The notes beneath the pieces were generated by a model, which had not been told where the DNA came from, made no database searches, and saw nothing but the letters and a program-made list of their open reading frames with translations. Made by a program: the position numbers and the translations under genes. Of a stretch of 64,000 bases of DNA, positions 1,657 to 15,911 are shown one piece after another. This DNA is from Paenibacillus puerhi (GTDB lineage Bacteria; Bacillota; Bacilli; Paenibacillales; NBRC-103111): assembly GCF_009846885.1 (NCBI RefSeq), contig NZ_WUWM01000002.1, positions 124,001-188,000 of the forward strand, given 5' to 3'. Positions within the stretch are counted from its first letter, which is position 1, and every line of letters starts with the position of its first letter.

Positions 1657-2343
1657 TCAGACCTCGTCGCAGCTCGCGCCAGGCGTTGGCGGGCTGGCTG
1701 CTCCTGTTGGGCCCGCCGGTCTTGCCTGTCCCCGCAGAGCAAGCTTGTAGCCCGCATACACAACAGCGAGAAATACGGCATAGACCGCCAGCGCAGCGGC
1801 CGTCATGATCGGGTCTGTTAGAAACGTATCGCCTACGAGAGCGAACACGAGCATAACAGGCACTTTGCCTAACACCGTCGCCGCGGCGAACACCGCCACC
1901 GAAATACGGCTTAGGCCTGAATAGATATTGATGGCCGGAGAGGGCAGGATCGGGATCAGCCGCGCGGCCAGCACACTCAGGAACGGACGCTTTTCGTACA
2001 GCGCCGTGAATCTCTCCAGACTCCGGAACCGGGTCAAGTAACGTCTCCCTTGATCCCTGAACAAGACTCGGACGAGCAGCAGCATCAGTACGGCTGCTAT
2101 CGAAGAGCCTGCCAGGTTCAGAAGTCCTCCGATCACGAACCCGTACTTGGCCCCCATGATGCCCCCTACCACTCCGAACGGGACCACCGGGACAAAAGCG
2201 AGCAATACGGATAGCAGCAGCATCAGAGGGAGATCGGAGCGATCCCCGCTGCCAAGCCAGCGGAGCAGCTCCTCTTTATAGAAGAGTGCAGCTGCTATCA
2301 AAGCTGCATACATGAGAACGACCAAGCCTTTTTTCACGTGCAC
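1657..2343 (-). CDS. VTT-domain (TVP38/DedA-like) membrane protein
   Basis: A 228-residue integral membrane protein with about five or six hydrophobic segments. The centre reads VPFGVVGGIMGAKYGFVIGG and later RLIPILPSPAINIYSG, the pattern of the VTT (SNARE-associated, TVP38/TMEM64) family. Relatives such as the DedA proteins act in lipid scrambling or membrane homeostasis, but the substrate here cannot be told. The start appears to be GTG at 2343, preceded by GGAAAGGAAG; a second GTG two codons later is possible. The start region lies in a perfect 12-base palindrome, CACGTGCACGTG, which may be chance. Confidence 0.8.
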   Translation of the reverse strand: MHVKKGLVVLMYAALIAAALFYKEELLRWLGSGDRSDLPLMLLLSVLLAFVPVVPFGVVGGIMGAKYGFVIGGLLNLAGSSIAAVLMLLLVRVLFRDQGRRYLTRFRSLERFTALYEKRPFLSVLAARLIPILPSPAINIYSGLSRISVAVFAAATVLGKVPVMLVFALVGDTFLTDPIMTAAALAVYAVFLAVVYAGYKLALRGQARPAGPTGAASPPTPGASCDEV

Positions 2344-2458
2344 GTGCGACTTCCTTTCCTCAAGGGTTCCGCCATTTCTCTATTCCGCGTTTCGGATAAT
2401 ATCATACCATTTTGGGCAAACATAAGTTAAGTTATTTTCCCGAATCGAGGTTCAAAAG

Positions 2459-3076
2459 ATGATCTATGACAATTGCAATTCCTCTTCCTTAAAAGAACAT
2501 TTAGAAAAATCGCTCGAAGAAATATCTTCACTAGCGAAACATAATATCGAGCTATTAAGCAATGAAGATGTATGCCTCGTACAACAATTCGAAAATATGA
2601 GAAACGTGATGACAGATATCGTCACAACCGCCGCGTCCTTTTATTTAAAATGTTATTTATCTCCTTACACATCCAAATACGAGGATCTGACGATAAGCAT
2701 ATGCCATTTATCCGAACGAAAGCATGGCGCGCTAATCGTCGTGGAACGAAACGATTCCCTTGAATCGCTCATTCCATCCAACGTACCCATTGGGGGGACG
2801 TTATCCCACTCCTTGATCGAATCGATATTTTTTCCGGGAAACCCATTACATGACGGGGCTATTCTGATTCGCGCCGAAACGGTTGTGTCTGCTGCTAACG
2901 TTCTTCCTTTATCCAACATTCAGGTAACAGACCGAAAACTAGGAACAAGGCACCGAGCTGCAATCGGACTAAGCGAAAGATCCGATGCGATCGTTCTTGT
3001 CGTATCTGAAGAAACGGGTCAAGCCTCGTTTGCTATAAACGGTGCTTTACATCCCATTCATATGATCACTACTTGA
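2459..3076 (+). CDS. cdaS: Diadenylate cyclase, CdaS type (DisA_N domain)
   Basis: This 205-residue protein makes the second messenger c-di-AMP from two ATP. The catalytic DisA_N/DAC domain fills roughly residues 85-200 and has the DGA motif at 132-134 (NPLHDGAILI) and RHR at 164-166 (GTRHRAAIG). About 80 residues precede it without a transmembrane segment; they are helical and glutamate-rich, as in the autoinhibitory region of sporulation-specific CdaS, and unlike membrane-bound CdaA or long DisA. A GAGG box lies eight bases before the ATG. The gene is clearly richer in A and T than its neighbours, which may reflect transfer or different codon selection. It is a monocistron between oppositely oriented genes. 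Confidence 0.9.
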   Translation: MIYDNCNSSSLKEHLEKSLEEISSLAKHNIELLSNEDVCLVQQFENMRNVMTDIVTTAASFYLKCYLSPYTSKYEDLTISICHLSERKHGALIVVERNDSLESLIPSNVPIGGTLSHSLIESIFFPGNPLHDGAILIRAETVVSAANVLPLSNIQVTDRKLGTRHRAAIGLSERSDAIVLVVSEETGQASFAINGALHPIHMITT

Positions 3077-3115
3077 TCCGTTAACCCGGGTTATCGGCTA
3101 TACGGCCCCATACGA

Positions 3116-4150
3116 CTACTTGACGGAACGATGCACGATCCCCATCGTATACCGGGCGGCAAGCCGCATCGCCTTCCGTTCCCGGGGATGTATCGTACTT
3201 GGCAGATGAGAGCCGGAGACGGAGATTTCGCTTACCGGCAATACTTGATAGGAGATCGCGCCCGAGACGGGCACCCTTCGTACCCAGGTAGGCACATAGT
3301 CAAGGCTAAGCAGACGGGTACCCGCCGCATCCTTCTCGATGGCAGCGAGCAGCAACAGCCCGTTCCGTGTAGCCGCATGCCCCATTAGCGTCGTCGAAAT
3401 GAAATTGCCCAGCGAATAAGCGGCCGCCTGGCCGCCGGTCCGCACGACGGGCTGTACGACATGAGGGTGCGCGCCCAGCACCAGATCCGCGCCGCCCTCA
3501 AGCAGCATACGGACCAGCCGCTTCTGCACCTTCCCCGGCTCATGCGTATACTCCTTGCCGAAATGCGGGCAGACGATCGTGTAATCCGCTGCTCTGCGGG
3601 CAGCCGCAAGCTCACGCAGCATCTGCTCCTCGTCCAGTCGGTTGACCATCCAGGCGCACGACTGCGGCAGTGTGAGACGATTGGTGCTTTTCGAGTAGGA
3701 TAGCACGGCGATGCGGACCCCCTTAATGTCCAGCAGAAGAGGACGTCCCGACTCCGCTTCGCTGCGGAAGGTCCCCGTGTGGGCAATCCCCGCTTCATCC
3801 AGAATGTCCAGCGTTCGGATCAAGCCAGTCATCCCGCGGTCCAGACAATGGTTATTGCCGGTCACTAGCACATCGAAGCCCGAAGCCTTCAGATCCGAAG
3901 CGAGCTCGGCAGGCGCATGGAACGTATAGAAGCCCGTCTTCGGATGCCGGTAAGTATATCTCGACGCGTGGCCGCCCAGCGGCAGCTCCAGATTACCGAT
4001 CGTCAGGTCCGCGCTTCGGAGCAGCGGCGCCGCGTAGCGGAAGATCGGAGCAAAGTCGTAACGGGCCGAACCTGCTATGCGCGCGGAGCGTATCATCGAT
4101 TCCGGGACCAGAATATCTCCTACGGCGGCTATCCGGATTATCGTAGACAT
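3116..4150 (-). CDS. CapA-family metallophosphatase-like protein
   Basis: A 344-residue protein of the CapA/PgsA family (calcineurin-like fold). Visible motifs are AAVGDILVPESM near the start, TIGNLELPL, VTGNNHCLDRG, CPHFGKEYTH and LGAHPHVVQP; these Asp, Asn and His residues form the two-metal site. No signal peptide or membrane anchor is seen, unlike poly-gamma-glutamate CapA proteins. It lies 72 bases downstream of the ydaK-like gene on the same strand and may be the last gene of the exopolysaccharide operon, but that gap is wider than the others there. A role in capsule or polymer processing is inference. GGGAGGG precedes the ATG at 4150. Confidence 0.8.
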   Translation of the reverse strand: MSTIIRIAAVGDILVPESMIRSARIAGSARYDFAPIFRYAAPLLRSADLTIGNLELPLGGHASRYTYRHPKTGFYTFHAPAELASDLKASGFDVLVTGNNHCLDRGMTGLIRTLDILDEAGIAHTGTFRSEAESGRPLLLDIKGVRIAVLSYSKSTNRLTLPQSCAWMVNRLDEEQMLRELAAARRAADYTIVCPHFGKEYTHEPGKVQKRLVRMLLEGGADLVLGAHPHVVQPVVRTGGQAAAYSLGNFISTTLMGHAATRNGLLLLAAIEKDAAGTRLLSLDYVPTWVRRVPVSGAISYQVLPVSEISVSGSHLPSTIHPRERKAMRLAARYTMGIVHRSVK

Positions 4151-4222
4151 AGGACGTCCCTCCCTTCGGGACTATCCTATTCAGGTGCGTCACCATCGTT
4201 CATGCCCGGCAGGCCCAAAAAT

Positions 4223-5077
4223 CTATACGTCATACTCCAGCTGCTTCTTGGCCTGGGCTATAAATGAAACCGGCGTCGGGATCGTGTCCTTGTCATACTC
4301 GATAGCGCCTATCTTCAGGACGAGCTCCACCTTATACTTCTCGGCGTACTCGCTGTCGTTCAGATCATCGACCCGACTCTTCAACCGCTCGATGACGAAG
4401 TTCGCTCCCTCCCGGTCCGTAAACAGCAGCATTCCCCAAGTCGGATTATCCCGGTTGAGCAAGTAGAGCGAATCATTCGTGCGGATGCTGGTCTGGCTGA
4501 GCTTGGACAGATCATGCACCGCCTCCATCAGCTTCTCTTCGCCGATCATGCGCCTGATCTCATCCCAATACTTCACACTGAGCACAAGCAAAGTCAGCGG
4601 CATATGATAGCGAACCGACAGCGCCATGAAAACCGTAGCATCGTTCTGGAAGGCCAAGCTGTTCTTCAAGCTTGTCTTCTCGTCCATCGTAGCCAGAGAA
4701 GAGTTGGTCTTCTTCAGTTCTTCATTCTCCTGCTGCAACTGCCTGCTTGCCAAGGTGAACATCCACGTTGCAACCGTGAATATGGGCGTCATGAGGAGCC
4801 AGAAATAATTCTGGGTCACGATAACGTCCCCCTCCACAACCGTCTGGTACAAGGTGAAGGTCCCGTAGCCGAATACAAACACGACATTCAGCATCAACCC
4901 CGTCGTAAGGGTCGTAAAATACGTGATGATGGCGATCAGGAAGGCCAGATTCAAGAAAATAATGTTCGGAACATACGTATTCGGATCCGCTGCTGTATAG
5001 ACGATACTGATAAAGCAAGCGATGAATAGCAGCAAGAACGCCCCGTCCGAAAGCGCGCCGCCTTGTAGGCGTCTCAT
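4223..5077 (-). CDS. ydaK: Membrane protein with degenerate GGDEF domain, YdaK/PssE-like c-di-GMP receptor
   Basis: The 284-residue protein starts with four hydrophobic segments (about residues 12-105), then a short coiled coil (112-130) and a GGDEF-like domain. The catalytic signature is absent: at 208-212 it reads NRDNP. The inhibitory-site motif RxxD survives as RTND at 199-202, five to seven residues upstream, the expected place. This combination, no cyclase activity but a c-di-GMP binding site, is what is described for Bacillus YdaK and Listeria PssE, receptors that switch on polysaccharide synthesis. The start codon overlaps the stop of the ydaN-like gene (ATGA), so the two are translationally coupled. 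Assignment as YdaK is by architecture and gene order. Confidence 0.85.
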   Translation of the reverse strand: MRRLQGGALSDGAFLLLFIACFISIVYTAADPNTYVPNIIFLNLAFLIAIITYFTTLTTGLMLNVVFVFGYGTFTLYQTVVEGDVIVTQNYFWLLMTPIFTVATWMFTLASRQLQQENEELKKTNSSLATMDEKTSLKNSLAFQNDATVFMALSVRYHMPLTLLVLSVKYWDEIRRMIGEEKLMEAVHDLSKLSQTSIRTNDSLYLLNRDNPTWGMLLFTDREGANFVIERLKSRVDDLNDSEYAEKYKVELVLKIGAIEYDKDTIPTPVSFIAQAKKQLEYDV

Positions 5078-7179
5078 CGGCCTCTCCCCCGCTTCGTTGA
5101 CTTCTTGTGCTTGCGGATCATCAGAATCAGAGAAACAAGCACCAGTACAAGAGTAAGTACGGCAGCTATCGTAAAGCCGACCACATCCTTGCGCTCCAGC
5201 ACCTCGCGGAGCACGGAGGGGGACTCGGGCTCGGCCAGCTTTTTGAACCGGAAGGCTTGCGTCCTGCCGTCTTTATCCGTAACGACGCCATCCCCGTATA
5301 CCTTCCACAGCGTACCCTCCGTAGCCAGCAGCTTGGACGCCAGATACACATACTCGGAGCCGCTGCCCGTAATTGCCAATAGTCCGTTGCCTCGGCCGTA
5401 AGGCGAATCGATCAATTGCAGGGAGCCTATACGCTTTCCGTATTCGGTCTCGATGCTCATCTTTTCATTGGACACAAACCCTCCGCCGTCCGGATCATAG
5501 CGAAAATACAGCTGCTCGTTGCTATCCCGGATAACCTTGTTGTCCTGGTAGCTGCCTATCGCAATGATCTGCCTTCCCTTCAGCTCTTCCGCGCTGGCCT
5601 CGTCTCCGAAGAAGCGAACCTCTCCCGTATTCGTCTGCGCATATTGGCCAAGCAGGTTAAACAGATGGGTCAGCGTTTGGAAGCTGTAGGCATCGCGCTT
5701 GCTCGGGAGCACCACAGCCACCTGGTTGTAGCTGCCGTCGCGAAGGAAGGGATAGGGGTAATTATTGAGCAGCAAGTCGGCTCGATCCTTGGTGTTCAGC
5801 TGCAGCAGCGAATCCTTCCCGATAAAAGCCCAGGGCATCTGATCTTGTCTTTCTATACAATCCATATGATGCTTGAGCTCCAGATCGAAAGCGACGGTTA
5901 CCGAAAAATTGCCCGAGATGTTCAAGTTTTTCGGCACTTGCAGCGTAAGACGATCGCCATCCGCCAGCTCCGAGGATAGTTTTTTGCTGCCTATAGGCGT
6001 TTTGTCGATCAGGACGGTAACCATGGAGCGTTCCATATCCAGATTACGCGCATAGCGCAAATCCAGACTAAGCTTGCTGGCATCGGCGAGCGAACGATTT
6101 CCGGGCAGGGCGACGAAATAGGTTCTTTCCTGGTGACCCTCGCCGGTCAACTGGTCTCCGCTCTCGGTCAAGACGACATTCCGGCTGACGCTGGCGGCGG
6201 GCGTCCCGACTTCCGTCGTCGCATCCACTACCTTCGCATTCGCGTCGATCTGAGCTAGCAACGCTTGATTGGCCGCCAGGCGTCCGGCTTTGATGAGCAT
6301 GCTCGCATCGCGAGAGGTGATAACCAGCGTAGGTTGATCGGCCGTCTTCACCAGTTGGAGCAGCGCCTTATCCTGCAGCTCCCCTGTACTCAACAGCCCC
6401 TTGAGCTCATCCGGCAAATTATCGTAGAGAGCGATAAGCACAACCGCCCGCTTCCCCTTCACCTGCTCCGCCACATAGGGGATCAGAGAGATCGTGCGTT
6501 CCTTCAGCGAGTTCGCCTTGGCGAATCCGGATAAAGCATACGCCGCGGCTTCCAGCTCGGCTGTCTCGCTCTTCCCGGACACCGCTACGGCATTCTGCCC
6601 TTCATCGACCGTATCGAGTCCGATAAAGTGGCGATTGAAATCCCGGATGCTATCCTTCATCGCCTCGCGGTCGTAGTGCACGGTAATTCGGGAGGAATCC
6701 AGCACCTGAAGCCAGCTGCCCCGGGTATCGGTCGGCAGACAGACGAGCTGCAGGCTCGGATCGATCGTTTCGAGCTGTCCTTGAATGCCCAGCGTATTGA
6801 CTCCCTCGGTCAGAAGCGAGGCAGGGACCGCCACCGACAGCTGCTGGTTCCCCGTCTCGCCGGTCACGGGCCGGAAGGAATGAAACGGCGTGCCGTTCAG
6901 AAGCAGCGTAACGCTGGATCGCTCGCTCTGCGTCAAGGGAGACGCTTTATAATCGAGCCGCACCTCTACCGCTCCCACCTTCCAATAGTCTTCGATCCGA
7001 AAATATTGCTGGGCGGAGGTTATCCCCCCGGATAAGGAGGTGCCGGTAAACGTCGTCCCGTACGTCTTTCCGTCCGCTCCCCCGTCTAATGCACCCTCGG
7101 CACGAGCCGTAAGCGGCAGCAGCAGAGCCCCGCAGAGCAGAGCTATCCTTAGCAATCTTTTGTTCACTAGTCTCCTCAC
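5074..7179 (-). CDS. ydaN: BcsB-like subunit of an exopolysaccharide synthase, YdaN-like
   Basis: A 701-residue protein with a signal peptide ending near RAEG, a long extracellular part and one transmembrane helix near the carboxyl end followed by a basic tail (KHKKSTKRGRGR). The body resembles cellulose synthase regulatory subunit BcsB, with two carbohydrate-binding-like sections around residues 40-160 and 345-460. BcsB-type subunits guide the nascent polymer out of the membrane synthase. It lies four bases after the ydaM-like gene and overlaps the ydaK-like gene. The polymer is unknown; in Listeria the corresponding synthase makes a galactose-decorated poly-N-acetylmannosamine. Confidence 0.82.
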   Translation of the reverse strand: MRRLVNKRLLRIALLCGALLLPLTARAEGALDGGADGKTYGTTFTGTSLSGGITSAQQYFRIEDYWKVGAVEVRLDYKASPLTQSERSSVTLLLNGTPFHSFRPVTGETGNQQLSVAVPASLLTEGVNTLGIQGQLETIDPSLQLVCLPTDTRGSWLQVLDSSRITVHYDREAMKDSIRDFNRHFIGLDTVDEGQNAVAVSGKSETAELEAAAYALSGFAKANSLKERTISLIPYVAEQVKGKRAVVLIALYDNLPDELKGLLSTGELQDKALLQLVKTADQPTLVITSRDASMLIKAGRLAANQALLAQIDANAKVVDATTEVGTPAASVSRNVVLTESGDQLTGEGHQERTYFVALPGNRSLADASKLSLDLRYARNLDMERSMVTVLIDKTPIGSKKLSSELADGDRLTLQVPKNLNISGNFSVTVAFDLELKHHMDCIERQDQMPWAFIGKDSLLQLNTKDRADLLLNNYPYPFLRDGSYNQVAVVLPSKRDAYSFQTLTHLFNLLGQYAQTNTGEVRFFGDEASAEELKGRQIIAIGSYQDNKVIRDSNEQLYFRYDPDGGGFVSNEKMSIETEYGKRIGSLQLIDSPYGRGNGLLAITGSGSEYVYLASKLLATEGTLWKVYGDGVVTDKDGRTQAFRFKKLAEPESPSVLREVLERKDVVGFTIAAVLTLVLVLVSLILMIRKHKKSTKRGRGR

Positions 7180-7183
7180 CCCC

Positions 7184-8434
7184 TTAGAATCGTTCGGTTT
7201 TATACCACTTGGCCTCTCGTTTAAACACCAGGTCCTTCAAGTAGGTATACATGCCGTAGGCCGCCACCACCATCCACAGCTGGCAGTAGGAAACATACAT
7301 CAGCATGATGATCCATAAGTTCGACAGCCTCATCTCGCCTTTCTCCGTAACGAGAGTAATAAAGGTGCCGACGACAAAAAGCGTAACCGCCAGCAGCCAT
7401 AGGAACGAACTGAAGCCTGCTATCGTAGTCGTCACATATCCAAGAGCATTCAGGATCAGCAGCAGGTCGGACATCACGAGAGAGGTCAGCAGCAGAAAAT
7501 AAATCGACAAAAAATAAAGAATGTCAAAGCGAATCGTCTTCGCCGAGCGATCGAACAGCAGCGGCAGGTTTTTGATGATGACATAAATATTGCCTTTCGC
7601 CCAACGCGTGCGCTGCTTAAACCATACTTTGACCGTTTGGGGCTCCTGTTCCCAGGTGACGGCTTTCGGCTGGAACTTGATCCGGTACCCCATCATATAG
7701 ATGCGGAAGCTGATCTCGGTATCCTCCGCGATCGCCTTCACATCCCATCCTCCGATCCGCTCGACAATCTCCCTTCTCATGATGAAGTTGGTGCCGGGGA
7801 TCGTGCACAGCTTGAATAATTTCCAGCGGCCCGCCTGGGCCATCCATTGGAAGGACAGCGTCTCGATGTTGATAAACCGCGTCAGCAGATTGGCATCCCG
7901 GTTCCGCGTCCTGAACTTGCCGATGACCGCTCCTAGCGTCGGATCATGGGTTATCTCCGAGACGAGGTAGCGCAGCGCTTGTTTCTCGGGTGTGTTGTCC
8001 GCGTCGTAGATGGCGATCAATTCGCCCTTGCTTAGCGCAAATCCAAGGTTGAGCGCATTGGACTTCCCCTTCCCACCGGTAACTGCATCGGTATTCAAGA
8101 TGATCAGATTGCGGCCCGGGTGCTTAAGCTGGAGATTGCCCAGCAGCACGCTGCTGTTATCCGAGGAGTTGTCGTTGATGACGATGATCTCATACCGGTC
8201 ATGGGGATAATGCAGGGCGAGCAAAGCTTCCACGGTCTGCGTGATGACCTTCCCCTCATTATGCGCCGGTACCATAATCGTCACAAACGGCGGCTCTTCC
8301 TGAAGCTCCGGGACGCTCTGGTTCTCCAGCTGAATATAGTAGAAGTAGCCCGCTACGATCAGGACCACATTCACGAGCAGCAGAGACCATATACATATCA
8401 CCGAAATCAGCATAAGCAGATCTGCAATCGTCAT
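7184..8434 (-). CDS. ydaM: Family 2 glycosyltransferase, exopolysaccharide synthase catalytic subunit, YdaM-like
   Basis: A 416-residue processive GT2 enzyme. One amino-terminal membrane helix is followed by the catalytic domain with VPAHNEGK, YDADNTPE (UDP-sugar binding), EDTEISFR (catalytic base region) and QRTRWAKGN, the QxxRW motif of cellulose, chitin and hyaluronan synthases. Three or four membrane helices close the protein and would form the export channel. There is no PilZ domain, so c-di-GMP control must come from another subunit, probably the neighbouring YdaK-like receptor. The ATG overlaps the TGA of the ydaL-like gene. All catalytic residues are present. Confidence 0.88.
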   Translation of the reverse strand: MTIADLLMLISVICIWSLLLVNVVLIVAGYFYYIQLENQSVPELQEEPPFVTIMVPAHNEGKVITQTVEALLALHYPHDRYEIIVINDNSSDNSSVLLGNLQLKHPGRNLIILNTDAVTGGKGKSNALNLGFALSKGELIAIYDADNTPEKQALRYLVSEITHDPTLGAVIGKFRTRNRDANLLTRFINIETLSFQWMAQAGRWKLFKLCTIPGTNFIMRREIVERIGGWDVKAIAEDTEISFRIYMMGYRIKFQPKAVTWEQEPQTVKVWFKQRTRWAKGNIYVIIKNLPLLFDRSAKTIRFDILYFLSIYFLLLTSLVMSDLLLILNALGYVTTTIAGFSSFLWLLAVTLFVVGTFITLVTEKGEMRLSNLWIIMLMYVSYCQLWMVVAAYGMYTYLKDLVFKREAKWYKTERF

Positions 8435-10002
8435 AATTTTCTCCCCGGATGCGTGTATTTGCGCTTGTACAGCCGATAGCCGATCACCAGGAAAATTCCG
8501 AATATCAACAGGGTCGTTGTGATCAGCACGATAAAGATATTGTTCTGAATAGTGAACAGGGCGTCGAAGCTGCGCTCGCCTTCCTCGATATACGTATGAT
8601 CCGATTCGATCTGCGCAAAGTCCTTGTTCAAGACGAGCGTTCGGCCGTTGATCTGAAGAAGCCCGGCGGCGGACCGGATCTCATGCTTGTCCGTGCGGAC
8701 GACATGAACCATGCTCTTGTAATCGGAAAAAGTTTTCCAGTCGCCCTGGAGCGCCTGAATCGTTGCTTCCAGTTGCTCCTCGCCTTCGGGAAGCTCGAAC
8801 ACGAAAGCGGTGTTCATAGGGAGCGGCTCTATCGCTTTGATCGACTGGTCGAATCTTTCCAGCTCACCAGCCTTCAGCGTATACAGCGTGGAGGCAAAGG
8901 TCTTCGATGTAGAGGTCGGGGCCCGGTGCATAATCCGCTCATTCGGGAACATCACGACCGAGTCGAAGAATGCCAGCCCTTTGGACGCATAATGCTCATC
9001 GTAGCTCCAGTACATCTCCGCCCCGATTCCCAGAGGCGCTATCCCATAGTCAGCCAAAGCATCTACAAAGGAAGCCAGCTCTTTATTCAACGTCGTGATA
9101 TCCTGACTGATCGTCGAAGCTACGAACGGAGCGTCCACCACCAGGCTGCCATTCCTCGACTGCACGTATTTGAGCGTCTCCAGATAACGCTGCGCTGCGG
9201 GGTAGTCGAAGTTGTCGAGGATGGGACGGACACTCGCAACAAAGGGGATGCCCGATTCGTACAGCCGATCTGCCAAGCGTCTGAGCAGCTGCAGGTCGGA
9301 GAACGGGTAGATCTCCTTGAACACCGCATAATATCCGCTCGGCGCGCGGACCTCCAGCCAGTCCGCAAGCAGATAGGCGATGCCCAGCTCGCTGAGGTTC
9401 CCTTTCTGCATATAGGGGACATAGGCATGCCGCCCGTTCAAGATTCCATATGGAGTAGTCCCGGAACGGCTGCCCGAGCTCCAGTTGCCATATCCCTTGC
9501 CTGCGTAGCGGACAATGGAAGGCAGGTTCTCCACCGGAAGAGAAGCCTCGGACAGCTGTCCGATCGCAAGCCGGAACCTGTCCCTCGTGCCCCGCTCCTC
9601 CTGAAGCTCCAAAGCTTGTACCGCTTGCTGCGGAAGGTGGGCGCCGATATGCAGATAACGGCCCTGGTATGCTTCGAAGTCCCGGACATAGGCTCCCGGC
9701 AGCTCCGTCAGATCTCCGGCATTGCGTACGGCGATCACGTGGTCGTAGCGCTGAAGCGCCCCCGGCTCATACTTATCGAAGGAGGATAAGGTCACCTGGG
9801 TCCCGAACGAAGCGAGCAGCCGCTGCAGCGCTTCGACATTGCCCTCGGTCGGGGTACCGATCGACAGACTGTCGTAGATTACCAACACCTGACTTGACGG
9901 CTGTTCGGCAGCGGCGCCGGCGGCTTTGACGTTCAAGCCCGGCGATGCTAGAAGAAAACAAAGCGACAGCAGCAGCCAGGATAAGACCTTATTGGGAAAC
10001 AT
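8431..10002 (-). CDS. ydaL: DUF2334 polysaccharide-deacetylase-like membrane protein, YdaL-like
   Basis: About 523 residues, with a signal peptide (SWLLLSLCFLLASPGLNVKA), a large extracytoplasmic section and a single membrane helix near the end with a basic cytoplasmic tail. The section around residues 225-400 (YAVFKEIYPFSDLQ, GIPFVASVRP, EMYWSYDEHY) matches the DUF2334 group related to polysaccharide deacetylases. A role in modifying the exported polymer is likely but not shown. I placed the start at 10002, where AGGGGGGATGGC precedes an ATG; an in-frame ATG at 10020 lacks a good site. It overlaps the upstream membrane-protein gene by 14 bases and the downstream gene by four. Confidence 0.8.
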   Translation of the reverse strand: MFPNKVLSWLLLSLCFLLASPGLNVKAAGAAAEQPSSQVLVIYDSLSIGTPTEGNVEALQRLLASFGTQVTLSSFDKYEPGALQRYDHVIAVRNAGDLTELPGAYVRDFEAYQGRYLHIGAHLPQQAVQALELQEERGTRDRFRLAIGQLSEASLPVENLPSIVRYAGKGYGNWSSGSRSGTTPYGILNGRHAYVPYMQKGNLSELGIAYLLADWLEVRAPSGYYAVFKEIYPFSDLQLLRRLADRLYESGIPFVASVRPILDNFDYPAAQRYLETLKYVQSRNGSLVVDAPFVASTISQDITTLNKELASFVDALADYGIAPLGIGAEMYWSYDEHYASKGLAFFDSVVMFPNERIMHRAPTSTSKTFASTLYTLKAGELERFDQSIKAIEPLPMNTAFVFELPEGEEQLEATIQALQGDWKTFSDYKSMVHVVRTDKHEIRSAAGLLQINGRTLVLNKDFAQIESDHTYIEEGERSFDALFTIQNNIFIVLITTTLLIFGIFLVIGYRLYKRKYTHPGRKL

Positions 10003-11530
10003 GCCATCCCCCCTGTCCATAGTTCACAGCGCCGGCTTGCCCGCCTTCCTCCTCTTCCTGTTCGTCCTCCAGCAGCCTCGCCCCCCATAACCTTCGGCCG
10101 AAGAAATCGGCTGCCGTCAGGAAGGACACAAGATCGAAGCAGGCTGTAAACAGAAACTCATGCTTGGACAAGTCCGCATCGCCCGCCCCGATAATCGAAA
10201 CCAGAATGCCGGACAGACCGACCAGTATCATCATGGCCATCAAAGGAAGCCGGATCGTGGCCCGGACCCGTCTGGCACGCACCGCAGCAACGAAGGAAGG
10301 CGCATAAAGCCCCAGCACGACGAGCGTCCAGATCACGACGAAGCCGAAGGTTTTCGGTGCCAGGGCATCCTTCAGCAGGCTGTAGCCTGAGAAGAAAACC
10401 GTCTGCGCGCCGAACGGCTTGCCAGCCGCCTGTTCATAGTTTCCCATGGCAGGAGGCCGGATCGTGAATCCGCTGCGGGCCGCAAGGTCCAGCATTTTGC
10501 CCGCCTGATCGGGGTGGGTGAGGTAGTAGGCGAGGATGGAGCCGAAGCCGTACCTGCTGTAAAACTCCTTCTCCAGCAGCTCGGAATCGACATCCACCGC
10601 CGTGTAAGGCAGATAATAAATGCTGCCGTTCAGAATAGCGAACTGCCGGTCGATTCCGAAGGATTTCAGCGTAGCCTCAGGATCATGCGAATTCATCAAC
10701 ACGCCGCGAGTCATCGCATGGTATTTATTAATGTTGACGAACTCCTTCGGAATCAGCGCATACGTGCCGACCCCGACTGCAAATAAGCCGATAAGCGCAC
10801 AAGAGACAAGCATTCGATACGCTCGCTCCCGCCTTACGAATACAAGGATGACGCCGGCCATTGCGATGATGAGTCCTACCGGCGCATTTTGCTGCTTACT
10901 CGTCGTCAGAAGTACGGCGCTGACCGCGAGCACGGCCAACAGCACATAGTCGTTGTATCTCTTCCGGTAAAGCAGCATCCCAGAAGCCACCACCAGCATC
11001 GCCATGATCATTACGACGCTTTCGCTATAGAAAGAATTAAAAAACGCCGTATAACCGGTGTCAGCGAAGATGAACACGGCCAAGCCGGCAATCGGATAGC
11101 CGAGCTTGCGGGGCAGCTTCCACGTGACGGCCTCCACCAGCAGGTACACGGCCATCGTATACAGCACGGTGTAAACGGCGGCCTGGAACCGGATATCGAA
11201 CACGGCAGAGCTGTAGAACAGCTTGTTCAGGAGCAGGGCCAGATGTATAAATAAGGACTGGGACGAGAAAAGAGGCGCTCCATTCTCGTTAAAGAATTGA
11301 AAGATGCCGTATTCCCTTACGAAATAACCCAGATACTGATCGTTGTAATCCGGCGGTTTGAAATATAAGCCGTTTCCGTACAGAATACGAAAGTAATCCC
11401 CGTTATCCGCCATGCCGAGGAAGGGTGGCGTGAAGAGCGCCACGATCGTGATCAGCAGTACCCCGGCCGCCGCTGCGGCAGCCGGAGAGCCGTATCGGAC
11501 AATCCACTTTCCCACTTTCTCTCCTGACAT
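9989..11530 (-). CDS. Polytopic GT-C-like membrane glycosyltransferase (WsfD-like)
   Basis: A 513-residue protein with about ten hydrophobic segments. After the first helix comes FLGMADNGDYFRILYG, an acidic extracytoplasmic loop like the catalytic loop of GT-C transferases, which use polyprenyl-phosphate sugars outside the membrane. It resembles WsfD-type hexose transferases of S-layer glycan clusters. A hydrophilic, glutamate-rich tail ends the protein. The gene sits in the exopolysaccharide operon, 20 bases after the ydaJ-like gene and overlapping the ydaL-like one. I infer that it decorates the exported polymer, possibly with sugars flipped by the divergent csbB-gtrA products. Family assignment is moderate. 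Confidence 0.65.
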   Translation of the reverse strand: MSGEKVGKWIVRYGSPAAAAAAGVLLITIVALFTPPFLGMADNGDYFRILYGNGLYFKPPDYNDQYLGYFVREYGIFQFFNENGAPLFSSQSLFIHLALLLNKLFYSSAVFDIRFQAAVYTVLYTMAVYLLVEAVTWKLPRKLGYPIAGLAVFIFADTGYTAFFNSFYSESVVMIMAMLVVASGMLLYRKRYNDYVLLAVLAVSAVLLTTSKQQNAPVGLIIAMAGVILVFVRRERAYRMLVSCALIGLFAVGVGTYALIPKEFVNINKYHAMTRGVLMNSHDPEATLKSFGIDRQFAILNGSIYYLPYTAVDVDSELLEKEFYSRYGFGSILAYYLTHPDQAGKMLDLAARSGFTIRPPAMGNYEQAAGKPFGAQTVFFSGYSLLKDALAPKTFGFVVIWTLVVLGLYAPSFVAAVRARRVRATIRLPLMAMMILVGLSGILVSIIGAGDADLSKHEFLFTACFDLVSFLTAADFFGRRLWGARLLEDEQEEEEGGQAGAVNYGQGGWHVSQ

Positions 11531-11550
11531 GCCGCAAGCCTTCTTTCCAA

Positions 11551-12675
11551 TTAATATACGTAAGCCAGCAACGCCATCAGATTGTCGAAGGAATAGGCCT
11601 GCCCGGTGGCTGTGTCTCCGAAGCCCCCGTTCAGCTCACTCCCGGGATCCAGAATCTGAAATTCATTCATTCGTCGCACGCTGTCTTCATATAAAGCCTT
11701 GTCTCCAAGCTCGGCTCCGATCATAGCCGCTATCGCATAGATTGCCGTCGACCGGATGTCCGTGGTTGGCTTCCCATTCTTCGCGTATTGACCGTACAAG
11801 GTACCTGCCTTGACCTGTTCCTTCACAAACCGGATGCTGGAGGGCTCGTGCTGCCGGACTTCCGTTAGCGCGAGAATAGTCAAGAGAGATTCCACCGTGT
11901 TGATATTCTCCGAGCTGTAGCCGGCTTTCTTGTAATCATACCGGGTTTCATAGAACGGGAAGTCATCCGATATGTACCCTCCCTTACTAATACCCAACAT
12001 ACGGGCTGTAAAAGCACCCTTCGACTTGCCGGATAGCGGCAGAAGCTCAAGCGTCTTCAAATCTATGTAGCATAACGTAATGAAATCATTGGTCATGCGA
12101 TACGTATCGTCGTAGAAGTCATACAGAAACCCGTCTTTTACATTATGCTCGTAGAAGCGCTGGCCATAGGTTTTCGCTTCGTTCGCATAAGCAGGATCGC
12201 GGAAGGCCTGTGCCGCTTCATGGAGACTTCTAATCATACGCAGGTCATCAACTGCCGCATTAATTGGGTAAGACTTGGTAAGGAGAGGGCTGTACCGGTA
12301 GCTGAAGCCGGATGGCAGGTCGAAAATCCGCTTGGCCCGGGCCCACTCCTCGTCAAATTTCTGCCGTTGCCCGGTTATCGCATAATAGCGCATCAGGATG
12401 CCTGCCGATTCGCTTAGCACCTCGTGCCCGCTAGCAGCTTCAGCGGTCTGCGGAGTATCCTTCAGGTTCGTATGGATGCCGCTCGGGCCGGTAAGACGGT
12501 TTTCTATAAATGCATACAAGGCCTCTCGTCTCTTCGACATGCCCGTGCTGTCCCCATAAGCTTGCATCGGCAGCAGGGAGCTGCTTTCAGCAGGTACGGA
12601 TGCAGGAGCCGATTCACAAGCCGTGAGGCCGACCATCAGCAGGATGCTTGCGCCGATCAGGAATCTTTTTTTCAT
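11551..12675 (-). CDS. ydaJ: Lipoprotein, YdaJ-like (glycosyl hydrolase-type, PssZ-like)
   Basis: A 374-residue lipoprotein; the signal peptide ends in the lipobox LTAC. The rest is helical and resembles the GH8-like (alpha/alpha toroid) proteins YdaJ and PssZ found with this type of synthase, for example SESAGILMRYYAITG, FDLPSGFSYRYSPLL and AAVDDLRMIRSLHEA. PssZ is reported to degrade the Listeria exopolysaccharide. This is the first gene of the operon. A GGGAGA site precedes the ATG, and about 200 bases of AT-rich DNA separate it from the divergent csbB gene, where promoters for both directions should lie. Catalytic residues were not verified. Confidence 0.78.
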   Translation of the reverse strand: MKKRFLIGASILLMVGLTACESAPASVPAESSSLLPMQAYGDSTGMSKRREALYAFIENRLTGPSGIHTNLKDTPQTAEAASGHEVLSESAGILMRYYAITGQRQKFDEEWARAKRIFDLPSGFSYRYSPLLTKSYPINAAVDDLRMIRSLHEAAQAFRDPAYANEAKTYGQRFYEHNVKDGFLYDFYDDTYRMTNDFITLCYIDLKTLELLPLSGKSKGAFTARMLGISKGGYISDDFPFYETRYDYKKAGYSSENINTVESLLTILALTEVRQHEPSSIRFVKEQVKAGTLYGQYAKNGKPTTDIRSTAIYAIAAMIGAELGDKALYEDSVRRMNEFQILDPGSELNGGFGDTATGQAYSFDNLMALLAYVY

Positions 12676-12876
12676 ACCCGTAAGTCTCCCTATGCATGCT
12701 ATGATTTTTAACCGTAAGAAATGATAAAATTAGGTCTTTGGAACCATTTACCAACCCGAAACATCCACTATATTTGTCGAATTGTCGTTTTTTATTCTCG
12801 ACTTGTTCAGCTTCCTATGCTATTTTGGTTCTAAGCAAGTTTACCATAATATCTTCATTCCCTCAGGAGGTAATAT

Positions 12877-13890
12877 ATGTATACATTCGGAGGAGAGACG
12901 CCCTTTTTGGCCGTAGTCGTACCCTGTTACAATGAGGAAGCCGTGCTTCACGAAACGACGAGAAGACTGGCTGCCGTGCTCGACCGCTTGGTTCAAGAAC
13001 GGCTCATCGCTCCGGAAAGTATCATCTTGTATGTCGATGACGGGAGCAAGGACGAAACCTGGGAGCTGATCGACGAGCTTAGCCGTTCCCATACCTTTGT
13101 CCGCGGGTTGAAGCTGTCCCGCAATTCGGGACATCAGAACGCTCTGCTCGCGGGACTGACCGCCGCCCGGGAGTGCTCGGATTGCGTCATCTCCATCGAT
13201 GCCGATCTTCAGGACGACGTTACGGCTATCCGCTCGTTTATATACAAGTTCCATGAGGGCTATGATGTAGTCTACGGAGTCCGGCAAAACCGGAGCACCG
13301 ATTCGATCTTCAAACGGAATACGGCCCTCGCCTTCTACCGGTTCATGAAGCTGATGGGCGTTAACATCATCTACAACCACGCGGATTACCGGCTTCTCAG
13401 TCACCGGGCTCTGACCGCCCTCTCCGATTACAAAGAGGTGAATTTGTTTCTGAGAGGGATCGTCCCCCTGGTCGGCTTCAAGTCCGCTATCGTCCGGTAT
13501 GACCGCCATGAACGATATGCGGGGAAGTCGAAATACAACCTGCGAAAAATGCTGTCCTTTGCTTTCCAGGGCATAACTTCCTTCAGCGTCACGCCGATCC
13601 GGATGGTGACGGCCGCCGGCTTCGTCATCTTCATACTGAGCTTTCTCGCGGCCCTATACTCCTTGACGGTCCATCTTTGGGGGCGTACGACTTCCGGCTG
13701 GACCTCGCTTATCTTGTCCATCTGGTTCCTTGGGGGCGTTCAACTGATGAGCCTCGGCTTGTTAGGGGAGTATATCGGCAAGATTTACTTGGAAGTAAAA
13801 AGCAGGCCCTTATACAATATAGAGGTGAACCAGCTTCTGGAGGATCGGGGTGTGCAAGCTGACAACAATCAGAAACTCATATCGCGTTAG
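12877..13890 (+). CDS. csbB: Polyprenyl-phosphate glycosyltransferase, CsbB/GtrB-like
   Basis: A 337-residue GT2 enzyme with VVVPCYNEE, the nucleotide-sugar motif YVDDGSKDE, SRNSGHQNALLAG and DADLQDD, followed by two membrane helices around residues 232-300. This architecture transfers a sugar from a nucleotide donor to undecaprenyl phosphate on the inner membrane face. An AGGAGG site lies six bases before the ATG. The next gene encodes a GtrA-type flippase and overlaps its end, so the two form an operon. It diverges from the exopolysaccharide operon, and a shared function is plausible. The sugar (glucose, GlcNAc or other) cannot be told from sequence. Confidence 0.87.
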   Translation: MYTFGGETPFLAVVVPCYNEEAVLHETTRRLAAVLDRLVQERLIAPESIILYVDDGSKDETWELIDELSRSHTFVRGLKLSRNSGHQNALLAGLTAARECSDCVISIDADLQDDVTAIRSFIYKFHEGYDVVYGVRQNRSTDSIFKRNTALAFYRFMKLMGVNIIYNHADYRLLSHRALTALSDYKEVNLFLRGIVPLVGFKSAIVRYDRHERYAGKSKYNLRKMLSFAFQGITSFSVTPIRMVTAAGFVIFILSFLAALYSLTVHLWGRTTSGWTSLILSIWFLGGVQLMSLGLLGEYIGKIYLEVKSRPLYNIEVNQLLEDRGVQADNNQKLISR

Positions 13891-14320
13891 AAAAAGGATG
13901 AAGACGATCCTCACCTCCAGCCTATTCCGCTTTCTGCTGGTCGGGATGCTTAACACGGCGGTCGGCCTATCCGTCATGCTCGTGCTCCTTCACGGGGCGA
14001 AGCTCGATTACTGGATGTCTACCCTGATCGGGACGGCTGTTGGGGCCTGCGTCAGTTATGTGCTTAACCGGTCGTTCACGTTCAAAAGCCGTACGGCCCA
14101 CAAGACAGGCCTGATTAAATTCCTCCTGGTGCTCGGCTCCTGCTACGTGGTGGCGTATGCCAGCAGCAGCTGGTTGACAGGCAGCATCGGCGAATTTATC
14201 CCGGTCCTGTCTGGCGATGCAGGCCGTACGATTGCTGTGGTGCTGGGGAACGGTTTGTATACGATTCTGAATTATCTCGGCCAGAAGCACTTTGTATTTG
14301 CGGAGCGAGATCGAGCGTAG
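13850..14320 (+). CDS. gtrA: GtrA-family flippase
   Basis: This protein has four membrane helices and the GtrA pattern FLLVGMLNTAVGL near the start, then YVLNRSFTFKS and YLGQKHFVFAE, as in GtrA/GtcA. GtrA proteins flip polyprenyl-phosphate sugars across the membrane. I used the GTG at 13850 because GGAGGA lies five bases upstream; this gives 156 residues and a 41-base overlap with csbB. The ATG at 13898 is an alternative but has only AAAAAGG immediately before it. It converges on the blaR1-like gene 31 bases downstream. Confidence 0.85.
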   Translation: MCKLTTIRNSYRVRKRMKTILTSSLFRFLLVGMLNTAVGLSVMLVLLHGAKLDYWMSTLIGTAVGACVSYVLNRSFTFKSRTAHKTGLIKFLLVLGSCYVVAYASSSWLTGSIGEFIPVLSGDAGRTIAVVLGNGLYTILNYLGQKHFVFAERDRA

Positions 14321-14351
14321 AGACGATAAGGCAGCTCTGGCCCCGCAGCAA

Positions 14352-15911
14352 TTATGGCAGCAAGCTTCGCCTTGGGGGAAGAGGCGAGGAGCTTTTGATC
14401 TGCAATACATAGCTCACTTCTTCCCCTTGCGGGGCTGCTTCTCCCAGATGAATGCTCAATCTGCTGCCATCCGTGCCCTGCCACGCCACAACCTTCCCTT
14501 GGGTACCCGCTTCATCCGCTTGTTCCAAAACTCGGAGATCATTGCTTGTCGGCTGCGGCAGGGATTGCGACAAGCTTGCCTTCAATTCCTGATTCCAAGC
14601 AGCGAAGCGATCTTTATCGGACGTTATCAACCAGTACTCGCCCGACACAAACTGATCGTCTGTGAAATGATAAACGACTCTTTGCGTCAAAGACGGACTG
14701 TCTTGAAGAATGTCTGCTGCAGTTATCAGCCTATCCTCTCCGGTCTCGTAGCTGCTTATCTTCCTTGTTGCTATAAGCTCCTGCCTCGTGATCAGCCATG
14801 GCAAGCCTTCGAACCCAAACCCGTCTCGGCTCTGTATGCTCTTCACAAGCTCGTTAAAGCGTGTCTGATTGTCGGAAGAAGCAGAGGTCGTTTTATCCGA
14901 ACCTGTATACGCTGTACAAGCGACCAAAATACCCGAGCCTATCACGAACAAAAGCACAGTGGTCATAGCAAGCTTGCCTTTTCGCTTGGTTCCCAGATCC
15001 AATATGCTGGCGAAGCGCCGTTCCATGGTTTTTTTCCCGCCGCTGAAGGAAGTGGAGAGCTTGCTGCTTCGCGTCTGTCCCGCTTCCATAATGGCGAGGA
15101 TCGTTTCGCTGTACTGTCTTCTGTAGGTTAGGTCCTTCCCTTTCACTACCTCGGTATCACATGAAATCTCCAGATCCTTGTCGGCCTGCCTCACCATCAG
15201 ATGGACCAGCGGATTAAACCAATGGATCGCCTGAACCGCGAGCAGCAGCAGCTTATACCCTAAGTCTCTTCGCTGATAATGAACGAGCTCATGCTTGAAT
15301 ATAACCTGTAGCTCATGGTCGCGATAGGTTTCCTGCGGCAGCCATACCGTAGGCTTGAAGAAGCCGGTCAGCATGGGGCCTTCCAGCTGCTTCCCGATCC
15401 GAAGTCGAACCTTACCCGACAGGCTGCGGCTCTCCAGCTCCTTCTCGAATAGCTCCCGAACTCTCGGGTCGGCCGGCGGTCTGCTCCAGCGCCTGATCGA
15501 GCGTTGGAACCAGATGTATCCTGCCAGGTGAACAAGGAGAGTAAGTACCGCTCCCCCGCCCCATACGATGACCAGCCAGTCATAGAGGCTGAGGCTTGCG
15601 AACGGGTAAACTGCCGCGGATGAACCGGTTTGGACGGCTTCATTTACGTGAATGGCCGCCGCTTGTTCCTGGAGGCTCAGCCCATTCGGCACGCTTGGGG
15701 AAGGGAGGACGATCCGAAGCGGAGATTGGGGCAAGGCGAAGCTGACTGGCAGAACAAGTCTCGCTGACAGTGCCATCCACACCCAATAACGCCAATGAAC
15801 CGTATAAGTGGCCGTTAACCATGGGATCAGCAGCAGCAAACAAGCGATCACAACGGAAGTACTGAGCGTGACTTCCATGATGGATGTAAGGATACGTTCG
15901 GACATGCTCAT
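14352..15911 (-). CDS. BlaR1-type M56 membrane metallopeptidase
   Basis: A 519-residue protein. The first 140 residues hold three membrane helices, then an M56 peptidase section with the zinc motif HELVH at 207-211. A final membrane helix near residue 320 precedes a short extracellular part. That part is not the penicillin-binding sensor of BlaR1 but resembles the DUF4825 type. Proteins of this kind sense a cell-envelope signal and cleave the partner BlaI repressor. The GTG/ATG start region overlaps the end of the blaI-like gene by four bases, so the pair is coupled. The signal it senses is unknown; beta-lactams are not implied. Confidence 0.85.
   Translation of the reverse strand: MSMSERILTSIMEVTLSTSVVIACLLLLIPWLTATYTVHWRYWVWMALSARLVLPVSFALPQSPLRIVLPSPSVPNGLSLQEQAAAIHVNEAVQTGSSAAVYPFASLSLYDWLVIVWGGGAVLTLLVHLAGYIWFQRSIRRWSRPPADPRVRELFEKELESRSLSGKVRLRIGKQLEGPMLTGFFKPTVWLPQETYRDHELQVIFKHELVHYQRRDLGYKLLLLAVQAIHWFNPLVHLMVRQADKDLEISCDTEVVKGKDLTYRRQYSETILAIMEAGQTRSSKLSTSFSGGKKTMERRFASILDLGTKRKGKLAMTTVLLFVIGSGILVACTAYTGSDKTTSASSDNQTRFNELVKSIQSRDGFGFEGLPWLITRQELIATRKISSYETGEDRLITAADILQDSPSLTQRVVYHFTDDQFVSGEYWLITSDKDRFAAWNQELKASLSQSLPQPTSNDLRVLEQADEAGTQGKVVAWQGTDGSRLSIHLGEAAPQGEEVSYVLQIKSSSPLPPRRSLLP

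Follow-up and report, generated by a model that had tools for sequence, protein, structure and literature searches.

The closest described relatives of the locus studied here are the pssA-E genes of Listeria and the ydaJKLMN genes of Bacillus. According to PMC4125290, pssA-E (lmo0527-0531) is a five-gene cluster ending in the receptor gene, whose product PssE binds c-di-GMP (Kd 0.79 μM), is required for exopolysaccharide (EPS), and has a dead motif, DKDDA, at residue 208 with an RxxD five residues upstream. For YdaK the residues R202-D205 and the motif SDERI are given (PMC5422440), and the R202A form is reported to have lost the c-di-GMP response (PMC7064775). The repeat of the Listeria Pss polymer is described as β-1,4-ManNAc with α-1,6-Gal on every second ManNAc (PMC10172500), and in a review PssB is given as the deacetylase of Listeria, whose loss leaves no cell-wall-associated EPS (PMC6307706). 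In P. alvei, WsfH and WsfD are needed for the branching α-1,6-Glc on a ManNAc of the S-layer glycan; in the authors' interpretation, WsfD takes its sugar from a lipid carrier (PMC2943079).

We compared with these systems a six-gene cluster in the window, by which we mean the whole 64,000-nt stretch of Paenibacillus puerhi DNA that was analysed (Table 1). The best explanation overall, which we hold to be probable, is that the cluster is a Pss-type EPS operon gated by c-di-GMP, in which a WsfD/PssA protein would form branches by way of a neighbouring GtrB/GtrA pair.

Table 1. Features of the operon and its surroundings, with positions in the window
Feature	Position	Strand	Evidence
PGA_cap (CapA-like) gene, 72 nt beyond the end of the receptor gene	3116..4150	-	Pfam
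Predicted PssE/YdaK-type receptor, a membrane protein whose GGDEF is degenerate (NRDNP) and whose I-site (RTND) is intact	4223..5077	-	
BcsB-like subunit (PssD ortholog)	5074..7179	-	Pfam BcsB; 39% identity to Listeria
GT2 polysaccharide synthase (PssC ortholog)	7184..8434	-	QRTRW; 75% identity to Listeria
DUF2334-like membrane-anchored protein (PssB ortholog), without HxxxH deacetylase motif	8431..10020	-	Sub-threshold Pfam, alignment, motif counts
WsfD-family membrane glycosyltransferase (PssA ortholog)	9989..11530	-	NCBIfam NF051875, WsfD tree, invariant GxADNGD
Lipoprotein, GH126-type glycosidase (PssZ/YdaJ-like)	11551..12675	-	PDB profile matches, lipobox, conserved acids
Intergenic region between divergent units, 201 bp	12676..12876	.	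Without Rfam match
GtrB-type GT2, predicted polyprenyl-phosphate hexose synthase	12877..13890	+	Pfam Glycos_transf_2, 82 bits
GtrA-family flippase, overlapping gtrB	13850..14320	+	Pfam GtrA, 83 bits (cut-off 26.1)

Gene order and type of the operon

In the ORF list of the window, six densely packed ORFs run from 12675 to 4223, all on the minus strand, with successive gaps of 20, −32, −4, 4 and −4 nt. The first protein has a lipobox, LTAC, beginning at residue 17. Its profile matched PDB entries 3REN (270 bits) and 6R2M, which is PssZ (186 bits); SES and DDxR were invariant in a 15-row alignment of its family, and E89 and D143/D144 are conserved residues. These matches to solved members, together with the conserved acidic residues, place it in the GH126 family of PssZ and CPF_2247, and we infer the assignment of its catalytic glutamate. 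The GT2 carries the motifs DAD144, ED237 and QRTRW274, with no PilZ domain matched in the Pfam scan, and the fifth protein matched Pfam BcsB at 154 bits (cut-off 21). The sequence-only reading had described the six genes and this packing, and ORF coordinates and family scans confirmed both. It was silent on the gtrB-gtrA pair, did not recognize the lipoprotein as GH126-like, and did not mention that the DUF2334 protein has lost the deacetylase motif.

How widely the arrangement occurs was surveyed at several taxonomic levels. Of 25 genomes in the genus of the window, 11 had a receptor match with an E value no higher than 1e-10: the window itself, one ortholog at 86% identity, and nine at 23-25%. 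These nine adjoin lipoprotein genes resembling that of the window, and no WsfD was seen beside them in loci of about 3.6 kb. In the family, WsfD was found in 51 of 104 genomes at E 1e-20 and fell into two groups, one with at least 60% identity in 33 genomes (window included) and one of copies at 26-38%. All 32 high-identity loci fetched contained WsfD, DUF2334, GT2 and BcsB together, with the receptor in 31 and the lipoprotein in 30; the receptor-less locus (L073) stops at a contig edge, and in L054 and L056 some operon genes are split over more than one ORF. Nine low-group loci were also fetched. One of them (L078) is a related operon, WsfD-receptor-DUF2334-GT2-BcsB; no operon of this kind was found in the other eight, three of which are gtrB-gtrA-wsfD cassettes.

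Across the class, the receptor profile matched in 187 of 398 genomes, true cyclases included, and 40 loci were read (L116-L155). The gene order of the window recurred in two (L136, L137), and one (L147, or L179 in its wider form) runs gtrB-gtrA-wsfD-receptor-DUF2334-GT2-BcsB. Thirty-one lack WsfD and have the ydaJ-N order lipoprotein-receptor-GT2, with no DUF2334 match in four of these, and at the remaining six no operon genes were seen besides the receptor match. Two small sets were observed in passing. RxxD-bearing degenerate GGDEF proteins in L126, L128, L130 and L131, whose four source genomes measure about 3 Mb and belong to one family (f17), had no operon genes found nearby and are possible orphan receptors. 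In L125, L129, L134 and L135, a lipoprotein, a receptor and a GT2 scoring only 339-351 bits occur with no DUF2334 or BcsB match, and these perhaps form a third class of receptor-gated synthase.

A search with PssZ as bait returned nine loci, eight from Listeria and one from Fictibacillus. When four of these Listeria genomes and the Fictibacillus genome were searched with the receptor profile, the Listeria matches had E values of 2e-95 to 1e-101 and the Fictibacillus match was weak and cyclase-like (5.6e-16). All four Listeria loci read, those of L. marthii, L. costaricensis, L. cossartiae and L. fleischmannii, have WsfD-DUF2334-GT2-BcsB-receptor in an order identical to that of the window. Where the first gene is a single ORF, in three of the loci, one of them containing a withheld stretch, it scored 607-643 bits against the profile built from operon WsfD; its product in L176 scored 570 bits against NCBIfam WsfD. 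Because this gene heads a five-gene cluster ending in the receptor, as in lmo0527-0531, we take it to be pssA. The frame in L. fleischmannii lies in two ORFs (L178, 5104-6617); either a genuine lesion or faulty sequencing may account for this.

Against the Listeria loci L176 and L177, the window proteins are 75% (GT2), 47-48% (WsfD), 43-50% (receptor), 39% (BcsB) and 29-31% (DUF2334) identical; against four loci of the ydaJ-N type, the GT2 is 45-48% and the receptor, in partial alignments, 22-26% identical. We weighed the possibility that the operon is a Bacillus ydaJKLMN operon to which a GT-C gene was added. The two types, ydaJKLMN being represented here by the 31 class-wide loci, have in common a GH126-like lipoprotein that leads the operon, an I-site receptor, DUF2334, GT2 and a BcsB-like protein. 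However, the window operon does not have the ydaJ-N gene order: its receptor is last, not second, it contains WsfD, and its DUF2334 protein lacks the HG..H that the ydaJ-N type mostly keeps. In addition, its GT2 and receptor are closer to those of Listeria, where the GT-C gene is already in place. We consider such an origin very unlikely; Listeria synteny refutes it and rules out the GT-C gene as an addition. The "extra GT-C gene" of the sequence-only reading is extra relative to ydaJ-N but not relative to Listeria, where WsfD occupies the pssA position in four genomes. Since WsfD heads the Listeria operons too, the GT-C gene belongs to the core of the Pss type. Judged by gene order and protein identity, the window operon is of the pssA-E type, led by a PssZ-like (GH126) gene, rather than ydaJ-N plus an addition.

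The surroundings were inspected as well. There was no Rfam RNA match in window positions 2000-15000, and neither promoter-like sites (7 vs 6.0) nor terminator-like sites (6 vs 8.3) were commoner than in shuffles. The CapA-like gene occurs at the same place only in one other genome (G019) among the fetched operon loci, and its membership in the operon is doubtful. At 2459-3076 (+) stands a gene for a CdaS-type diadenylate cyclase (DAC 124 bits, CdaS_N 58 bits), so that a c-di-AMP enzyme gene lies near the c-di-GMP receptor operon.

The degenerate GGDEF protein and the DUF2334 protein

The last protein of the operon matched Pfam GGDEF at 27.3 bits (cut-off 23.8). The catalytic GG(D/E)EF is gone from it; NRDNP (residues 208-212) stands there, and an RxxD, RTND (residues 199-202), lies five residues upstream of the GGDEF position. 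A profile alignment to solved diguanylate cyclases made R199 and D202 coincide with the I-site RxxD. We then aligned 80 sequences, consisting of the window protein and the best receptor match from each of 79 loci; nine of the 88 loci scanned yielded no receptor match and are absent. R199 and D202 were conserved in 80/80 and R156 in 78/80, counts of sequences rather than of independent events, many of them being close relatives. R156 probably lies close to the site that is the putative secondary one in YdaK. L132 and L133, by their looks ordinary diguanylate cyclases, were the only sequences in which a GG[DE]EF followed the RxxD. As judged from the alignment, chance is excluded as the source of I-site conservation alongside GGDEF drift. 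The sequence-only reading had placed NRDNP at the GGDEF position and RTND at the I-site, and had proposed an I-site-type degenerate GGDEF receptor in an EPS synthase operon, as in ydaJ-N and pssA-E. Both proposals are supported by sequence, the RxxD being exactly in place in the profile alignment and invariant among the aligned receptors.

The same elements are found in the characterized receptors. The residue numbers of the I-site and the dead motif in Listeria PssE are identical to those of the window protein, and R202-D205 and SDERI of YdaK are the counterparts of its R199-D202 and NRDNP. The L. cossartiae receptor (L177) has RTSD and DKDDA, the latter being the motif published for L. monocytogenes. 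A single-sequence AlphaFold model of the window receptor was too poor for use (mean pLDDT 56). The protein could instead be a purely structural synthase subunit that does not bind c-di-GMP, and the hairpin after its I-site is indeed 1-2 residues longer than in the ydaJ-N type. Against this stand the conservation of R199, D202 and R156 beside a drifting active site, the binding of c-di-GMP by PssE (PMC4125290), and the 43-50% identity of the receptors of two other Listeria species to that of the window, and we rate a structural role as most improbable. The identification of the protein as a predicted I-site c-di-GMP receptor is thus well supported. The source genome has 22 GGDEF matches, this protein included, and therefore c-di-GMP synthesis is likely.

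The third protein scored 13.2 bits for DUF2334, below the cut-off of 26, and aligns with clear DUF2334 proteins; the alignment also revealed that the HxxxH metal motif is missing. HG..H was found in 0 of 39 fetched Pss-type loci, versus 23 of 30 ydaJ-N-type loci. In Pfam scans, four Pss-type proteins scored 13-27 bits (cut-off 26), and four ydaJ-N-type proteins scored 181 and 145 bits where the motif is present and 102 and 26 where it is absent. We dropped the idea that the deacetylase motif divides the two types in an all-or-none way, as seven of the 30 yda-type DUF2334 loci, one of them (L144) a 323-aa piece, also lack HG..H. The PssB-type protein looks catalytically dead by its motifs, though still needed.

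WsfD/PssA and the gtrB-gtrA pair

The second protein matched NCBIfam WsfD (NF051875) at 609 bits, above the cut-off of 80, and has eight hydrophobic segments in a simple hydropathy scan. The loop that follows its first membrane segment contains GxADNGD, which does not vary among the WsfD proteins aligned; a loop of this type after TM1 is expected in an outer-face GT-C enzyme. Searches by sequence at E up to 1 gave no solved relatives, and a single-sequence AlphaFold model was too poor for use (mean pLDDT 41). At order level the WsfD profile matched in 134 of 296 genomes at E 1e-60. A tree of 51 WsfD proteins separated 38 operon proteins, including two from Listeria, L078 and L179, from 13 stand-alone ones with support of 100/98, the placement of L179 being unsure on its very long branch.

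P. alvei WsfD and the Listeria Pss polymer share linkage, acceptor sugar and protein family, and for this reason we ascribe a branching role to WsfD/PssA. By this analogy we infer, on good grounds, that it would take a hexose from a polyprenyl-phosphate sugar and attach it as a side chain. Every pssA-E gene is reported to be necessary for EPS in Listeria, which is not easily reconciled with a pure branching enzyme. This leaves room for a different role, in which WsfD/PssA acts on another acceptor (S-layer glycan, teichoic acid or an EPS lipid anchor) or serves the synthase as a structural or export component. The description of WsfD for an S-layer glycan (PMC2943079) and the presence of gtrB/gtrA beside only 3 of 40 loci (below) also favour such a role. 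It has to contend, however, with the location of WsfD within the EPS operon in 32/32 fetched high-identity loci, with the partition of operon from stand-alone WsfD in the tree, and with the Listeria polymer, which bears the type of branch attributed to WsfD. We regard a non-branching role as unlikely, though it deserves serious weight, and proceed with WsfD/PssA as a putative branching enzyme.

A sugar donor for such branching could come from the divergent gtrB-gtrA pair. GtrB scored 248 bits for the PgfS-type and 141 bits for the ArnC-type NCBIfam family, both under cut-off. In G019, gtrB/gtrA likewise stand beside the operon, about 180 bp away, and in the distant genome G182 gtrB-gtrA-wsfD are in series and lead straight into it. 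Among 40 Pss-type loci in which a receptor was seen (the window plus 39), the pair was adjacent in three: the window, L012 and L179. The truncated L073 has no adjacent pair either. The divergent and in-series arrangements look like separate events. By sequence family, the three-part glycosylation set of a GT-A C55-P sugar synthase, GtrA and WsfD is together in the window and in G182. The latter also has a GH26 glycosidase and a 1195-aa SASA-esterase-domain protein between BcsB and the GH126 gene (L179, 2388-7131), possibly further polymer-modifying enzymes.

Elsewhere the pair is found apart from the operon. GtrB-GtrA-WsfD cassettes lie away from it in L080, L082, L083, L196, L202 and L206. 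Nineteen GtrB loci of the family that lie away from the operon were read; 11 had GtrA only, three had GtrA and WsfD, two had WsfD with GtrA not found, and three had neither. In the family, GtrB at 54% identity or more was present in 30 of 33 genomes with the operon, versus 28 of 71 without it (Fisher p 4.7e-7, a statistic that ignores kinship); in the other three operon genomes the best GtrB was only 45% identical. Within single genera, the proportions in operon versus non-operon genomes were 2/2 versus 1/23 in g1, and 1/1 versus 0/12 in g21, one of these 12 being assigned to g21 by assumption. With three operon genomes lacking a close GtrB and 28 of 71 operon-free genomes having one, the pair serves other systems too. 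In L. marthii, a GtrB homologue with 60% identity is followed by a 700-aa ORF, and from a neighbouring ABC-subunit ORF we read its surroundings as a teichoic-acid locus. With this ORF next to it and the apparent teichoic-acid locus, GtlA was dropped as a name for the homologue.

Proposed mechanism and comparison with known systems

Sequence comparison establishes the six proteins and their order, shows the operon to be orthologous to that of Listeria, and reveals an intact I-site beside a dead GGDEF motif. On this basis we propose that c-di-GMP from one of the cell's diguanylate cyclases would occupy the I-site of the receptor, and that the bound receptor would switch on the GT2/BcsB synthase, which would extrude a β-1,4-ManNAc-type chain as in Listeria; by analogy, a polymer of this class is likely. 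Less surely, the divergent GtrB would make a polyprenyl-phosphate hexose and GtrA would flip it, after which WsfD/PssA, at the outer face, would use it to place an α-1,6-linked hexose on ManNAc. The lipoprotein of the GH126 type may trim or release chains, and the DUF2334 protein may be a non-catalytic part of assembly or export.

Extended to the Pss type in general, this becomes a reading that we judge evenly balanced: PssA would be the outer-face hexosyltransferase that uses polyprenyl-phosphate hexose to branch poly-ManNAc, Pss operons would join a synthase polymer to a three-part decoration of O-antigen style, PssB would be a dead deacetylase, and gtrB-gtrA would have been captured beside Pss operons at least twice. 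If true, there would be two classes of Gram-positive c-di-GMP-gated EPS, a branched and acetylated Pss class and an unbranched Yda class, mostly with a potentially deacetylating DUF2334 protein. The comparison shows the Pss machine of Listeria to be part of a broader set of bacteria, suggests a role for pssA and a source of the galactose branch of the Pss polymer, and calls the 'deacetylase' label of PssB into question. It also makes available relatives outside Listeria for studying c-di-GMP control of such polymers, one of which has the genes for synthase and receptor together with the complete predicted branching cassette. In the titles and abstract openings retrieved from the open-licence literature, PssA was not named as a branching enzyme, nor was the operon described in the window's group.

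In comparison with the known systems, the window operon has the PssA-PssB-PssC-PssD-PssE gene order of Listeria in common. It differs in having the PssZ-like GH126 gene first, whereas that gene lies about 1.4 Mb from the operon in L. marthii, and in being adjoined by gtrB-gtrA, a pair not seen beside any of the four operons read in Listeria. With the WsfH/WsfD S-layer glucosylation of P. alvei it shares the WsfD family. The multi-component transmembrane glycosylation system GtlA/GtcA/GtlB of Gram-positive bacteria, as described in PMC8035078, combines a GT-A polyprenyl-phosphate sugar synthase, a GtrA flippase and a GT-C enzyme, the same combination that is predicted here. Unlike in both of these systems, the predicted GT-C enzyme of the window belongs to an exopolysaccharide operon with a predicted c-di-GMP receptor.
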